In this document: one piece after another, positions 6,880-37,606 of the stretch | Position numbering within the stretch: the first letter of the stretch is position 1 | Layout of the letters: each line of letters begins with the position of its first letter | Assembly (NCBI GenBank): GCA_016930635.1 | Contig: JAFGGI010000061.1 | Location: 1-40,453, forward strand | Length of the DNA stretch: 40,453 bases | Reading direction: 5' to 3' | From: Sedimentisphaerales bacterium | GTDB taxonomy: Bacteria > Planctomycetota > Phycisphaerae > Sedimentisphaerales > UBA12454 | The notes under the pieces: generated by a model | Databases searched by the model: none | The model's input: the letters and a program-made list of their open reading frames with translations, nothing else | Told to the model about the DNA's origin: nothing | Translations under genes and position numbers: made by a program

Positions 6880-7323
6880 TTATGCAACCACCTTCGCAAC
6901 ACCGCCACAACTCAATATCTTATCCTGTGCGGTTTTGCTGAATTTATGAACACTTATATTAAGCTTCTTCGTCAGCTCTCCATCGCCGAGAATCTTAACT
7001 CTGCTCGTTACACTATCAACAAGTCCTGCACCAAATAGACTTGCAACATCAACATTAGAACCATCTTCAAATCTATCAAGCTGGGAGACATTTATTATCT
7101 CATATCTGCGAGAAAACTTATAATTGCTGAAACCTCGCTTCGGCAACCTGCGAAACAGCGGCATTTGTCCGCCTTCATACCCTAATTTGCCACCGGCACC
7201 AGCTCTGCTCAGACTGCCTTTGTGTCCCTTGCCGCAAGTCTTACCATGGCTGCCAGAACCCTTGCCAAGTCTTTTCCTTCGCTTGTTCGCACCTGCTATT
7301 TTAGTTATTTCATGACTCAACAT
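6880..7323 (-). CDS. rplO: 50S ribosomal protein L15
   Basis: The chosen ATG at 7323 gives 147 aa starting MLSHEITKIAGANKRRKRLG. A GGTGAT sequence complementary to the 16S tail lies about 6 nt upstream, and L15 proteins normally begin at this point, so a GTG start 15 nt earlier is less likely. The Gly/Lys-rich N-terminal extension penetrates 23S rRNA. It follows rpsE after 8 nt, with no rpmD (L30) gene between them. Confidence 0.97.
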   Translation of the reverse strand: MLSHEITKIAGANKRRKRLGKGSGSHGKTCGKGHKGSLSRAGAGGKLGYEGGQMPLFRRLPKRGFSNYKFSRRYEIINVSQLDRFEDGSNVDVASLFGAGLVDSVTSRVKILGDGELTKKLNISVHKFSKTAQDKILSCGGVAKVVA

Positions 7324-7331
7324 TGATTTTA

Positions 7332-7850
7332 TCACCACCTTTTTACTGCTTCTATTTCCACTCCGCGAAGTTCCGCTATCGCTTCGGAATTGCGAAGCCT
7401 TAATAAACCATCCATTGTCGCTTTTACAACATTTTTCGTTGTCGTACTTCCATAAACCTTAGTCAATACATCATGAACGCCTGCCAGTTCCAGTACAGCT
7501 CTCGCGCCTGAGCCGGCGATAACACCAGTACCGGGACTTGCCGGTACCAAAGCTATTTTAGTAGCACCAAATCTGCCTGTGATCTGATGCGGTATTGTCT
7601 GACCCTGAAGCGATATCTTCTTAAGGCTTTTCTTGGCATCTTTAATAGCTTTATCAACTGCCATAGGCACTTCTTTTGCCTTGCCGTAACCAACTCCGAC
7701 AGTCCCAGATCGGTCGCCAACAGCAACCATAGCACTGAAGCTGAACCGCCTGCCGCCTTTAACCACCTTTGCGCAACGGAAAACCTTAACTACCGTTTCT
7801 TCAAGAGGACCGCTCTCTTGTGCAACAGTTCTTCTCAACTCTTGAGCCAA
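7332..7850 (-). CDS. rpsE: 30S ribosomal protein S5
   Basis: The 172-aa protein has the double-stranded-RNA-binding-like N-terminal domain ([29 protein letters not shown]) and the C-terminal domain with [20 protein letters not shown]5 influences decoding accuracy and translocation. The order rplR-rpsE-rplO is usual, except that rpmD is missing after it. It starts 50 nt after rplR. Confidence 0.98.
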
Positions 7851-12598: not shown

Positions 12599-13147
12599 TT
12601 ATATTTCAGTCACAGTAATGTGTATGTGACTTCCCATTTTCCTGATCGAATGAGCCCTTCCCCTGTCCTTGGGAATCCATCTTTTCGTACCTACTCTAAT
12701 GCCGGCACAATCAACACGAGCCTGACAGATGTAAAGATTTTCAACATCTGCGGCATCTTCATCAGCATTAGCAACAGCACTTTTAATCGCCTTTTGTACC
12801 ATATCGGCTGCTCTCTTCCCGGTAAACCTGAGCATATCAAGCGACTCCTGGACATCTCTGCCGGCAACCAGTTGTGTAACCAACCTTGCCTTGGTCGGTG
12901 ATATCGGAGCGTATTTAATAGTACTCCTCCACTGGGATATATTAATCGCATCTACTCCGAGTGCCGAAGCCAATGACTCAATATCTCTGCCTCTCGGCAC
13001 AGGTTTAATAAGCCCTTTGCGCCAGTTCTTTATTGCCTTTGCCGCCTGCTTTTCATCAAACCCCGGCCGTGTTATAGCCGCTGCCAGCTCGGCAACATTC
13101 TTACCCTGTTTTTTAATCAGATTGTCAAGTTTGTTTGCGCTTAACAT
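12599..13147 (-). CDS. rplV: L22 with N-terminal HTH-like extension
   Basis: Residues from about 75 onward are a normal L22: IKYAPISPTKARLVTQLVAG, MVQKAIKSAVANA, and the tunnel-lining beta-hairpin ending GRAHSIRKMGSHIHITV. About 72 extra residues precede it, making 182 aa instead of about 110-120. The extension (KNVAELAAAI, KAIKNWRKGL, DIESLASALGVDAINISQW) resembles the Cro/XRE helix-turn-helix pattern of LA-x-x-I, N-W-x-x-G and LA-x-x-LGV. The start is one base after the rpsS stop. No alternative ATG lies at the usual L22 start, and I saw no plausible ribosome-binding site there, so the extension is probably translated. Whether it binds DNA or RNA or serves ribosome structure is unknown. Confidence 0.93.
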   Translation of the reverse strand: MLSANKLDNLIKKQGKNVAELAAAITRPGFDEKQAAKAIKNWRKGLIKPVPRGRDIESLASALGVDAINISQWRSTIKYAPISPTKARLVTQLVAGRDVQESLDMLRFTGKRAADMVQKAIKSAVANADEDAADVENLYICQARVDCAGIRVGTKRWIPKDRGRAHSIRKMGSHIHITVTEI

Positions 13148-13148
13148 C

Positions 13149-13427
13149 TTACTTTCCCGGTTCTACCTTTCTTCCAGAATGTCCCTTAAAGATACGGGTC
13201 ATTGAAAATTCACCAAGTTTATGTCCTACCATTTCTTCCGTAACAAAAACCTTATTGAAGATCTTTCCATTATGCACAAGGAAAGTATATCCAACAAACT
13301 CCGGAACAATAGTACTGCGCCTGGACCATGTTTTAATAGGGTCTTTAGTGCCCATCTGACTCTGTCTTACCACCTTCTGCAAAAGCTTGGCATCAACAAA
13401 AGGTCCTTTTTTTAGCGATCTCGACAT
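13149..13427 (-). CDS. rpsS: 30S ribosomal protein S19
   Basis: The 92-aa protein starts [15 protein letters not shown] and has the conserved [22 protein letters not shown] and [11 protein letters not shown] segments. S19 is in the 30S head and binds with S13. It follows rplB by 40 nt and precedes rplV by one base. Confidence 0.98.
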
Positions 13428-16287: not shown

Positions 16288-16672
16288 ATCCGCTCTCTTA
16301 AAAACTATTTAAGAAAAATTTTAATATTTCATTCACTCTGCAAAAACACCTTTGCCCTCTTCCTGACATTTTTGCAAAGGCGAAAACGTAAAAAGATAAT
16401 CTTTTTAGTACAAATAATCAACAATAATAATGCTTAAAAAAAGCCTTTTTTATACAAAAACCGCCTTTTCAGCATTTAAACACAAAACAAGACAAACTAT
16501 ATCGCTTGTCCCACTTGCGATTAAACGTCCGCAAGGCTATATTGCCGCAGTAGTCCTGCTACAGATATGTTATCAGCCCAACTCGGAACGCCCCTTTTCC
16601 CTGCTCTGGCAAGTACTTAGAGGCTCGCTACGGCTTAGGAAACGAAATTTATACCAGATATATTAAGACTGG
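16288..16672 (-). other. Intergenic region fusA-rpsJ (385 bp)
   Basis: No credible gene is present. On the minus strand there are short hairpins: CTTGCG/CGCAAG (6 bp, 10-nt loop, about 16516-16537) and an A/T-rich palindrome AAAAAAGGCTTTTTT near 16433-16450 that could be a weak fusA terminator. A weak promoter-like pair (TTGTAC, 17 bp, TACGTT) lies near 16384-16412. The length and structure fit an S10-operon leader with its own promoter, but this is inference. Confidence 0.4.
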
Positions 16673-34179: not shown

Positions 34180-35130
34180 TTATTTTTTCTTCCTTACAAT
34201 AAAAACACCCAAACTGAGTAACGCTAATGTAGCTGGTTCTGGTATGAGCAACATAATGTCATTACCATCGCCGCCTGTGTAAGTTAACTGATAAACACTG
34301 CTTCCAACAGGAACGTAAGCGCCTTCCACGCCTGCGACGCCATTGACTGTGTCGAACATACCGCGAACAAGCTCGCCGCTGGTATTTTCGATGAGCAGCA
34401 GAGGAGCTACCGGATCTGCGCCTGTTGCCGTAACAATAAGCTGGGCAAGTGCGGCTTCCTCGTTCATGGAATCAACTATGGTTTCTGTTACATGAATTGG
34501 ACTTACGGTGCCATCGGCAGCAAGTTCAAATTCAATTGTACCAGTACCTGTGTTGCCCGAACTGCTCGAGCTGTCGTTAGCTATATACATCATGTTGCCT
34601 TGCGTTATAGTTGCTGCGCTGCCGACTACTTTAAGTGTTCCTATGGAACCATCTGCACTGGAACAGCCTACATAAATTCTGCCGCCACTACCGGTTAAAG
34701 CACCGCCGCTGATGGTATAAGTTCCATCGCCGCCGAGCTTGTAGCCGATCTGAAGTTTTCCTTCATTTGTAAGCGTTCCTCCTGTTTGAGTCAGGTAGCC
34801 AATATCTGTTCCGCTGCCTGACATACCAGCATCACCAATATGCATTTCTCTGCCTGTCTGGAGAGATGCGCCCTCAGTGATCAACAGTGTGCAATCACGT
34901 GCGGTATCTATTTTGGTGAGGTTGTAAGCGCCGACGTCGGTATTAACCGTAACGGTATAACCATCGCCATTGCCGATTTTGATTTCGTCGCCATCATCAA
35001 GTGGAACATAACCCTTGTCCCACAATGTTGGCTCAGCCCAATTTCCTGATCCTGTAGGGTAAATTGATGCCGATGTGGTGCTGACCAGAACGCCGGCCAG
35101 CAAAAGAATGGTAAATAATTTTAACTTCAT
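34180..35130 (-). CDS. Secreted PEP-CTERM protein, beta-repeat type
   Basis: The ATG at 35130 gives 316 aa. An AAGGAG sequence about 10 nt upstream and the GAAAGGAGCGAGAAG leader shared with the gene at 37606 support it over a start seven codons earlier. A signal peptide covers residues 1 to about 22. The body has a GNWAEPTLWDKGYVP motif and Gly/Thr-rich strands (QTGGTLTNEGKLQIG, TISGGALTGSG) typical of planctomycete beta-helix-like surface proteins, ending GGDGNDIMLL. The C-terminus is a PEP-CTERM signal: IPEPATLALLSLGVFIVRKKK. Such tails are cut by an exosortase, which is not in this window. The specific function is unknown. Confidence 0.9.
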   Translation of the reverse strand: MKLKLFTILLLAGVLVSTTSASIYPTGSGNWAEPTLWDKGYVPLDDGDEIKIGNGDGYTVTVNTDVGAYNLTKIDTARDCTLLITEGASLQTGREMHIGDAGMSGSGTDIGYLTQTGGTLTNEGKLQIGYKLGGDGTYTISGGALTGSGGRIYVGCSSADGSIGTLKVVGSAATITQGNMMYIANDSSSSSGNTGTGTIEFELAADGTVSPIHVTETIVDSMNEEAALAQLIVTATGADPVAPLLLIENTSGELVRGMFDTVNGVAGVEGAYVPVGSSVYQLTYTGGDGNDIMLLIPEPATLALLSLGVFIVRKKK

Positions 35131-35315
35131 CTTCTTCTCGCTCCTTTCCATGTGTCATCTTCTTCCAATAATTAGGCCCAATTATATGTAGAGCAGTAAA
35201 TCAAAATATCCAGACATACAGTCTGACTATCTGCTGTTCGGATACCTTGCATTTACTGATTTGGCCTTCTAGTTTTACCCATTTTCCCATAAACACAGGG
35301 AAGTTGGCAAGTCTA

Positions 35316-35357
35316 TTAAGCGCAAAAACATCACCAAAAACACTATTTTGCGCAAAA
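35316..35357 (-). promoter_or_regulatory. Paired palindromes upstream of PEP-CTERM gene 1
   Basis: The 12-bp perfect palindrome TTTTGCGCAAAA (35346-35357) and the related TTAAGCGCAAAA (35316-35327) lie 30 bp apart start-to-start, with GGCAAG at 35306-35311. The same three blocks, with identical spacing, precede the other PEP-CTERM unit. They lie about 190-230 bp upstream of the ATG at 35130. Likely an operator for a dimeric regulator. Confidence 0.55.
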
Positions 35358-35377
35358 AGCCCTTAAAAATATACTTT

Positions 35378-35395
35378 CCGCCTTTAAAAAAGCGG
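35378..35395 (-). terminator. Weak terminator candidate after PEP-CTERM gene 2
   Basis: CCGCTTTT pairs with AAAGGCGG (8 bp including a T-G wobble) over a 2-nt loop on the minus strand, a few bases after the stop of the gene at 35399. The following sequence is AAAGTATATTTTT, so the U-tract is displaced. It may end the two-gene PEP-CTERM transcript. Confidence 0.35.
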
Positions 35396-35398
35396 TTT

Positions 35399-36490
35399 TT
35401 ATCTCTTTCTTTTTATAATAAAAGCGCCAAGACCAAGCAGAGCCAGCGTCGCAGGTTCGGGTGTATACAATGCAATGTCATTACCTCCGAGGCTCATAGT
35501 ATCAGCATTATACCGATAAGTCAGCATACGCCAAGTACCATTGCTAAGGTAAACCCGAACACCTTCATAAGCAAAGCCGTCGTTGAAGGTGTCAAATTGA
35601 CCATGAACCGGGTCTGTGCCCCGATTGTCAACAAGAACAATGTCTCCCCAAGGGTCATCAAGAGCTTCTGTCAGCCAAACTACCAAATGAGTTGAACTCG
35701 GTTCATAAGTATGAACATCGACATAGTCATCAACTATAATTGGACTGACACCATCAGCCGTCATCTCAAACACTAAAGTACCGTCAGCAACCCTGGACAG
35801 GTCTGTCTTGCCGGCACGGCCGCCCATCTCCAGTGCGCCCATATGTACGACTGGAGCTGTGCCTGTAACTCTCATCGTTCCAACGCCGCCGCGGTCACCG
35901 ATTCTAAGATGGCCTCCTGCAGTAGCTTCGGGGTGAAGATATGTCATAGTCCCGCCTGAGATATGATAGAGACCTTCACAATCTGAGCCGCTGCCGCCGT
36001 CTGAAATCGTCAATCCCGCCGGGTCTTTGTAATCATCTCTTACACCATTTTCAAAGGCCATAAGTCCGCCTGTCTGAATAACAGCGCTTGTTGTACCTTC
36101 GTTAGCCTGGCTGCCCTCACCAACACGGAGCCAACCGATACCCTGAAGAGTACCGCCGGGAATGATGTTTACTGTAGCTCCGCCGAAAAACCTTACTCTG
36201 TTCGAATACCAGCAAGTGAATGTCTGGTCATCATCAACATAAACTATAGGCTTTGGCAGACCTGCTGCACCATACACCTGGATTTCCTGGTCGCCATCTG
36301 CAGGCTGTAACTGAGGAATATTTCCAGCTGGTCCAGGTTCAGTGCTGTTTGAAGCCACCCAGTTGCTGACGTCAGACCAACTGCCGATGAGCGGAGCCCT
36401 GGCAGAATCAGTATCCCAGTAATACACAGCAAATGCGCTGTTTGCCGCAAAAGCTAAAACCAAAACAACGATTAAACTTCTTAACTTCAT
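35399..36490 (-). CDS. Secreted PEP-CTERM protein, tandem paralogue B
   Basis: The 363-aa protein has a signal peptide (residues 1 to about 21, ending NSAFA), then YYWDTDSARAPLIGSWSDVSNWV, a planctomycete-type W-S-D-x-x-N-W motif. Gly-rich repeats (IQTGGLMAFENG, YHISGGTMTYLHPEATAGGHLRIGDRGGVGTMRVTG) follow. It ends TPEPATLALLGLGAFIIKRKR, a PEP-CTERM sorting signal. AAGGAG lies 8 nt before the ATG. It is 24 nt after its paralogue, so the two form one transcript. The middle (about residues 93-250) is almost identical to the paralogue, while the region before the tail differs. Function unknown; probably an exported surface protein. Confidence 0.9.
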   Translation of the reverse strand: MKLRSLIVVLVLAFAANSAFAVYYWDTDSARAPLIGSWSDVSNWVASNSTEPGPAGNIPQLQPADGDQEIQVYGAAGLPKPIVYVDDDQTFTCWYSNRVRFFGGATVNIIPGGTLQGIGWLRVGEGSQANEGTTSAVIQTGGLMAFENGVRDDYKDPAGLTISDGGSGSDCEGLYHISGGTMTYLHPEATAGGHLRIGDRGGVGTMRVTGTAPVVHMGALEMGGRAGKTDLSRVADGTLVFEMTADGVSPIIVDDYVDVHTYEPSSTHLVVWLTEALDDPWGDIVLVDNRGTDPVHGQFDTFNDGFAYEGVRVYLSNGTWRMLTYRYNADTMSLGGNDIALYTPEPATLALLGLGAFIIKRKR

Positions 36491-36514
36491 CTTCTTTCTC
36501 CTTTCAAGGTTTAT

Positions 36515-37606
36515 TTATTCTAAATCAAGCTCGATTTTTTTTCTCATAATCAAAGCTCCAAGACTGAGCAGAGCAAGCGTCCCAGGTTCGGGCACAAATC
36601 CAATATCATTACCATCACCAGCATGGTAACTCAGCTGCACTATAACACCGTTGCCAATATCAGCATAAGCACCTTCATAAGCATAACCGCCGTTGAAAGT
36701 ATCAAAGTAACCAACAACAGGGTCTGTACCCCGATTATCAACAAGGATAATATTATCAGAAGGACCATTAAGACATTCGGTCAGGTTAACTACGAGGTGA
36801 GTTGTACTCGGCTCATATGTGTGAACATTAACATAATCATCAATTATGATTGGACTGACACCATCAGCCTTAATGTCAAACATCAAAGTACCGTCAGCAA
36901 CCCTGGACAGGTCTGTCTTGCCGGCACGGCCGCCAATTTCCAGTGCACCCATATGGACGACTGGAGCTGTGCCTGTGACTCTCATCGTTCCAACGCCGCC
37001 GCGGTCACCGATTCTAAGATGGCCTCCTGCAGTAGCTTCGGGATGAAGATATGTCATAGTCCCGCCAGAGATATGATAGAGACCTTCACAGTCTGAGCCG
37101 CTGCCGCCGTCTGAAATTGTCAATCCTGCGGGGTCTTTGTATTCATCTCTTATGCCATTTTCAAAGGCCATAAGTCCCCCTGTCTGAATAACAGCGCTTG
37201 TTGTGCCTTCATTAGCCTGGCTGCCTTCACCAACACGGAGCCAACCGATACCGGCAAGAGTACCGCCTGGAATGATATTTACTGTAGCTCCGCCGAAAAA
37301 TCTTACTCTATTGGAATACCAAACGCTGAAAGTAACATCACTGTCAACATTAACTATAGGCTTTGGCAGACCTGCTGCACCATACACCTGGATTTCCTGA
37401 TCGCCATCAGCAGGCTGAACCTGTGGAGCATTTCCAGGTAGTGGAGGCATGGTGCTGTTTGTAGCTACCCAATTGCTGGCATTAGACCAACTGCCGATAA
37501 GCGGTGCCCTGGAAGAATCAGGATCCCAGTAATACACAGCAAATGCACTGTTAGTAATAATAGTAATTACAATGACAGTAATGAGAAATGCTAACCCCTT
37601 CTTCAT
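36515..37606 (-). CDS. Secreted PEP-CTERM protein, tandem paralogue A
   Basis: The 363-aa protein has a signal peptide (MKKGLAFLITVIVITIITNSAFA) followed by the same architecture as the next gene. It ends VPEPGTLALLSLGALIMRKK and then six more residues, IELDLE, after the basic cluster, which is unusual because PEP-CTERM tails normally end at the basic residues. The Shine-Dalgarno is AAGGAG, 8 nt before the ATG. It is the first gene of the two-gene unit controlled by the paired palindromes at 37714-37755. Confidence 0.9.
   Translation of the reverse strand: MKKGLAFLITVIVITIITNSAFAVYYWDPDSSRAPLIGSWSNASNWVATNSTMPPLPGNAPQVQPADGDQEIQVYGAAGLPKPIVNVDSDVTFSVWYSNRVRFFGGATVNIIPGGTLAGIGWLRVGEGSQANEGTTSAVIQTGGLMAFENGIRDEYKDPAGLTISDGGSGSDCEGLYHISGGTMTYLHPEATAGGHLRIGDRGGVGTMRVTGTAPVVHMGALEIGGRAGKTDLSRVADGTLMFDIKADGVSPIIIDDYVNVHTYEPSTTHLVVNLTECLNGPSDNIILVDNRGTDPVVGYFDTFNGGYAYEGAYADIGNGVIVQLSYHAGDGNDIGFVPEPGTLALLSLGALIMRKKIELDLE

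Follow-up and report, generated by a model that had tools for sequence, protein, structure and literature searches.

A predicted Cro/C1-type domain fused to ribosomal protein L22 in Sedimentisphaerales and a second planctomycete lineage

The L22 gene and its surroundings

The window, by which we mean the whole stretch of 40,453 nucleotides that was analysed, derives from a Sedimentisphaerales bacterium (contig JAFGGI010000061.1). It contains a single copy of the L22 gene, flanked by rpsS and rpsC within the S10 operon (Table 1). The open reading frame (12599-13147, reverse strand) begins with an ATG codon and encodes a single protein of 182 amino acids, in which a domain assigned to the Cro/C1 (XRE) type, residues 1-70, precedes a complete L22, residues 71-182. 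The preliminary description of this DNA had placed about 72 residues ahead of a normal L22, with a start one base from the rpsS stop and no ATG at the usual L22 start, and it was correct in these respects, with the small correction that the domain proper comprises approximately residues 1-70. The rpsS stop codon and the L22 ATG are separated by exactly 1 nt and, in the window gene, no ATG was found where the extra domain gives way to the core of L22. Start-like codons in this neighbourhood are limited to a GTG and a TTG, positioned 25 and 16 codons before the core; both fall within the extra domain, away from the usual L22 start.

The assignment of the L22 part is straightforward. It scores 89.7 bits against PF00237 (E = 1.6e-25, curated cut-off 28) and 92.7 bits against TIGR01044 (E = 1.4e-26, cut-off 73.65), above the cut-off in both cases. 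When the predicted structure is compared with solved L22 chains from bacteria, its residues 71-182 align with their residues 1-110, with Z values of about 18 and rmsd values mostly of 1.1-1.3.

Two other features of the window were noted. There is no rpmD (uL30) between rpsE and rplO (6880-7850, reverse strand); Ribosomal_L30 was found in none of 24 planctomycete genomes tested, compared with 13 of 14 control genomes. At 34180-37606 (reverse strand) three exported PEP-CTERM-like proteins are encoded one after another. Two of these, each of 363 aa, are nearly duplicates, and the trio adjoins a cluster of tRNA, tuf, nusG and ribosomal protein genes on the same strand.

Table 1. Positions in the window of the fused L22 gene and of associated features.
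Feature	Position	Strand	Basis or remark
Extra domain at the L22 N-terminus, Cro/C1 (XRE) fold predicted, residues 1-72	12932..13147	-	profiles, homologues, predicted fold
Complete L22 (uL22) core and stop codon	12599..12931	-	PF00237, TIGR01044, Z ~18 to solved L22
rpsS (S19)	13149..13427	-	stop codon 1 nt upstream of L22 start
Codons of K40 and N41-W42, helix 3	13022..13030	-	K/R at 40 in 56/62; N41-W42 invariant
Three-residue insertion in L22 tunnel hairpin, ~residues 150-154	12686..12700	-	AGxRxGTKR vs GP---xKR
RNA with covarying stems ahead of rpsJ, candidate leader of the S10 operon	16557..16644	-	covariation; associated with the operon, outside the fusion

Predicted fold of the extra domain

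Taken alone, the window sequence produces weak profile matches, to Pfam P22_Cro (E = 0.028) and NCBIfam carph-isopro (E = 0.0029), and falls below every Pfam gathering cut-off for HTH families. Its homologues match HTH_31, HTH_3, HTH_26 and HTH_19 at E-values of 3e-5 to 4.6e-6 and phage (PHROG) regulator families down to 4.7e-8. In the PDB, the family profile has matches to TniQ and to a Cro protein of phage type, at E-values of 0.001-0.02.

An AlphaFold2 model of the full protein, built on 81 sequences, has a pLDDT of 92.8 and a pTM of 0.83. Five helices are predicted in the domain, at residues 4-14, 18-25, 32-43, 53-63 and 67-70. The short last helix continues into the first strand of L22, and the model has no linker between the two. 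Modelled by itself, the domain forms the same helices with moderate confidence (pLDDT 79). This isolated model matches CylR2 with a Z of 9.7 over 64 residues (rmsd 1.6), and further structural matches are to C.Csp231I (Z = 9.6), P22 c2 (9.0), SinR (8.6) and 434 Cro (8.4). The HTH-like regions of phosphonate oxygenases also occur among the matches, and Foldseek E-values for the isolated domain reach down only to 0.03. Residues 1-70 are thus predicted to be a compact five-helix Cro/C1 (XRE) fold. The preliminary description had noted the Cro/XRE likeness and had named the failure of structure prediction to give a compact HTH fold as grounds for abandoning it; the prediction gave such a fold, and the likeness, weak in the profiles of the window sequence, is carried by the homologues and the model.

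Conservation and the pattern of retained residues

The full-length protein is encoded in frame and without stops in 56 of 59 relatives from the same family and order, at 47-71% identity. All 62 proteins compared share M1, N41 and W42 in the extension, and L7, A22, G29, A38, P49 and A60 are nearly invariant. In close pairs, the pN/pS of the domain is about 0.45, against 0.19 for the L22 core, which indicates that the extension is under purifying selection, with a constraint roughly two- to threefold below that on the core. A chance extension of the open frame is ruled out by the conservation, by the selection and by the pattern of presence and absence, and an assembly artefact by the recurrence of the fusion in dozens of genomes from independent studies. 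The observation of an HTH-L22 fusion is confirmed as real and lies well beyond chance.

A Shine-Dalgarno-like stretch lies upstream of the extension start in 49 of the 62 members. N-terminal processing of ribosomal proteins occurs in organelles and in some bacteria, and together with the GTG and TTG codons inside the domain this lends something to the idea that cleavage after translation, or an internal start, leaves plain L22 in mature ribosomes. We regard that outcome as very improbable: 38 of the 62 members have no start codon in the interval from eight codons before to five codons after the start of the L22 core, the model shows no linker where helix 5 passes into the L22 strand and the domain is under purifying selection.

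The residues with which Cro/C1 proteins read DNA are poorly represented. The canonical glutamine at the start of helix 2 (position 18) is present in one of the 62 members; valine occurs in 30, and the position is mostly V/L/I. In helix 3, positions 36-37, which were aligned by eye with Q28/Q29 of the 434 repressor, are variable and often hydrophobic (A/V/L/I or S/A/R/T). The alignment places about seven more residues in the turn between helices 2 and 3 than in canonical Cro/C1 proteins. The 62 sequences lack the combination of a short turn with conserved polar residues that contact DNA or phosphate where helices 2 and 3 begin. Basic residues are kept at position 40 (K/R in 56 of 62) and mostly at positions 44 and 48, and the median net charge of the domain is +4.5.

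These details bear on a role in DNA binding, either as a sequence-specific autoregulator at the operon promoter or as a non-specific tether of ribosomes to the nucleoid. We consider both quite improbable. In addition to the loss of the helix 2 glutamine, the variable base-reading positions and the longer turn, there is the matter of oligomeric state: ribosomes contain L22 as a monomer, and DNA binding by Cro/C1 proteins usually involves dimers. From the sequence pattern, a DNA-binding autoregulator of the S10 operon would appear the less likely of the two roles put forward in the preliminary description, the other being a place on the ribosome surface. The XRE fold and the net positive charge nevertheless agree with DNA binding, and there is a precedent in B. 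subtilis, where bL17 and uL24 bind DNA or the nucleoid (PMC10931766).

Distribution and origin

The domain was detected in 26 of 120 genomes of the class (E <= 8.1e-20), always at the L22 gene. Two further weak matches in the class sample (E 0.003-0.006) lie elsewhere, in other frames. No comparable match was found outside the class in the phylum sample, the best being at 8.7e-5 in a 912-aa frame, and no second copy of the domain was found in its own genome. The carriers are all of the sampled families of Sedimentisphaerales and two families of the same class, f10 and f25; other families of the class have plain L22. The distance from the rpsS stop to the L22 core reflects this division, being 223-390 nt in carriers and 5-131 nt in non-carriers. 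The domain can serve as a marker for Sedimentisphaerales.

In a tree of twelve other ribosomal proteins the carriers form two separate groups, with backbone nodes that are weakly supported. The Sedimentisphaerales and f10/f25 versions of the domain are homologous (profile-profile E = 7.7e-25), and the point of fusion and the long helix 2-3 turn are common to both clades. This distribution could reflect an ancestral fusion with subsequent loss in several families, or equally a spread of the domain through transfer or recombination.

The L22 core of Sedimentisphaerales is set apart from that of f10 and f25 by an insertion in the tunnel hairpin that is specific to the order. It adjoins the position of M82-K83-R84 of E. 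coli L22, deletion of which confers erythromycin resistance, and it may alter the tunnel constriction.

A candidate leader RNA upstream of rpsJ

In the order, the interval between fusA and rpsJ (286-645 nt) contains a promoter-like sequence followed by a conserved RNA. The promoter-like sequence was judged by eye and is absent from the output of the consensus scan. The RNA consists of stem 1 (CAGCC/GGCUG), then GNAGCGAGC, stem 2 and then GCG...GAGUUGG. Thirteen pairs are formed in 87.5% of cells, and in ten of these pairs both partners vary. The score for covariation, 0.335, was obtained from an alignment not fitted to the structure; it exceeds those of all 500 shuffles and of all slid controls, in a shuffle test that relatedness can inflate. 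It is on this covariation that the two-stem structure is proposed; RNAalifold with default settings recovers only stem 2 from the unrefined alignment, and folding of single leader sequences (those of the window and of L108) gave results no better than shuffles. No Rfam family matched the leader at its gathering score, and matches below it were at chance level.

A covariance model of the leader, R1, finds the element in 17 of the 18 sampled genomes of the order, and the 18th (G015) was added by direct search. It was not found in other families, the domain-bearing f10 and f25 included, apart from one match (G075) that is a false positive, the sequence not being a ribosomal protein locus. The occurrence of the leader is not tied to that of the domain, HTH-L22 being present without it in f10 and f25.

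The leader invites the suggestion that free HTH-L22 binds this RNA and shuts down the S10 operon, with the HTH as an added RNA-binding module. In keeping with this, a covarying leader precedes rpsJ in almost every genome of the order, and the S10 operon includes the L22 gene. The likelihood seems low to us. The two carrier families f10 and f25, which may have a different target, were not found to have the leader, and against 23S loci the leader model gave only chance-level matches, so that nothing points to L22 as the ligand. Moreover, S10 leaders are classically bound by uL4, which controls S10 operons (PMC10931766), and uL4 is encoded in the same operon here. Of the autoregulation put forward in the preliminary description, the DNA-reading version is weakened by the residues that are not conserved and by the longer turn, and any version by a leader that does not follow the domain; what persists is of low probability and would be based on RNA more than on DNA.

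Proposed role on the ribosome

L22 is an obligatory protein of the 50S subunit. Given this, its single gene per genome and the lack of an alternative start where L22 usually begins, the domain should be present on all 50S subunits. The domain would then lie on the solvent side, beside the exit of the tunnel, L22 being one of the four proteins around it (PMC5071890). The location on the ribosome surface suggested in the preliminary description is consistent with this, and is supported by the conservation, by the fold predicted and by where L22 is known to lie.

The most likely partner of the domain is 23S rRNA or a protein next to it, and such binding would stabilize assembly or shape the exit platform. 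Its canonical DNA-reading residues appear largely lost, with the invariant N-W pair and conserved basic residues retained. Because the DNA-reading positions are lost and N41-W42, K/R40 and the basic positions 44 and 48 are kept, the pattern fits binding to a fixed partner, such as rRNA or a protein nearby, more readily than recognition of a shared operator.

On balance we lean towards a clade-specific ribosomal domain that is covalently built in near the tunnel exit, where it may bind rRNA or a neighbouring protein. The full-length conservation in the order and in f10 and f25, and the fact that the domain is seen only fused to L22, argue for a built-in role. Against this, the HTH is mostly a DNA-binding fold, and the members could read operators that have diverged. 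More tentative, though worth stating, is the possibility that a repressor-type domain sits permanently in every 50S subunit of two planctomycete lineages, as a new rRNA-binding module or as a coupler of the ribosome to the nucleoid or to mRNA. If true, this would be, to our knowledge, the first Cro/C1 domain integral to a ribosomal protein.

When the 23S rRNA of eight carriers was compared with that of six non-carriers, no indel tracked the domain, so that the comparison points to no rRNA partner. The region corresponding to E. coli 541-560 was considered and rejected, being shorter in most carriers and longer in the carrier G033. Separately, two large insertions were observed in 23S rRNA, of about 289 nt near E. 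coli 1861-1880 in G014 (L182) and of about 453 nt near 1161-1180 in G125 (L194), which are possible intervening sequences.

The position of L22 also suggests a docking platform, on which the domain would recruit or position, beside the exit, a factor that acts on nascent chains, in quality control or in hibernation. Its place among the four proteins around the exit (PMC5071890) is suitable, and the HTH of EDF1 is part of a ribosome quality-control factor (PMC7486125). We think this unlikely, as no partner was identified and trigger factor is equally present with and without the domain. A replacement of trigger factor is ruled out, Trigger_N being found in 22 of 22 genomes, carriers and non-carriers alike.

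Comparison with known systems

Extensions of ribosomal proteins are common, and most of those described are tails without a known domain. Structured examples, one of them on L22, have been resolved in the M. pneumoniae ribosome (PMC9534751). In this L22, in the chloroplast uL22c and in the plant mitochondrial uL22m, a complete L22 at the tunnel exit likewise bears a lineage-specific addition (PMC9534751, PMC5071890). The descriptions of these additions speak of mostly disordered, extended or short helical segments, and in no case of an HTH. The NCBIfam family NF008917, 'L22/unknown domain fusion protein', also joins L22 to an extra domain, but there the partner is C-terminal; it matches the window protein over the L22 part only (residues 79-179, model positions 9-108 of 311), with 47 bits against a cut-off of 526. 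We found no published description of an HTH-L22 fusion in the open-access literature. The new part is that an extension, a known kind of addition to a ribosomal protein, is made of a complete Cro/C1 domain. A whole domain recognizable as regulatory is here built stably into a ribosomal protein that is conserved universally, both across one order and in another lineage. For gene callers, the fusion is a caution not to trim L22 to the usual start.

With the Cro/C1 (XRE) regulators CylR2, P22 c2, 434 Cro and C.Csp231I the domain shares the predicted five-helix fold and the W-x-x-G and LA-x-ALGV motifs. It differs from them in the longer turn between helices 2 and 3, in the DNA-reading residues that are not kept and in the fusion to L22.

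The closest parallel in function may be EDF1/Mbf1 and the archaeal MBF1, which also have a Cro/C1-type HTH. In EDF1/Mbf1 it is held between h16 and h33 of 18S rRNA (PMC7486125); theirs binds the ribosome, and for HTH-L22 we propose the same by analogy. These proteins are separate factors of the small subunit with an additional MBF1 or zinc-ribbon domain, are not a covalent part of a ribosomal protein and are not known from bacteria, whereas HTH-L22 is covalent and bacterial. The fusion would provide a clean case of the recruitment of a repressor fold to ribosomes, as in EDF1/Mbf1.
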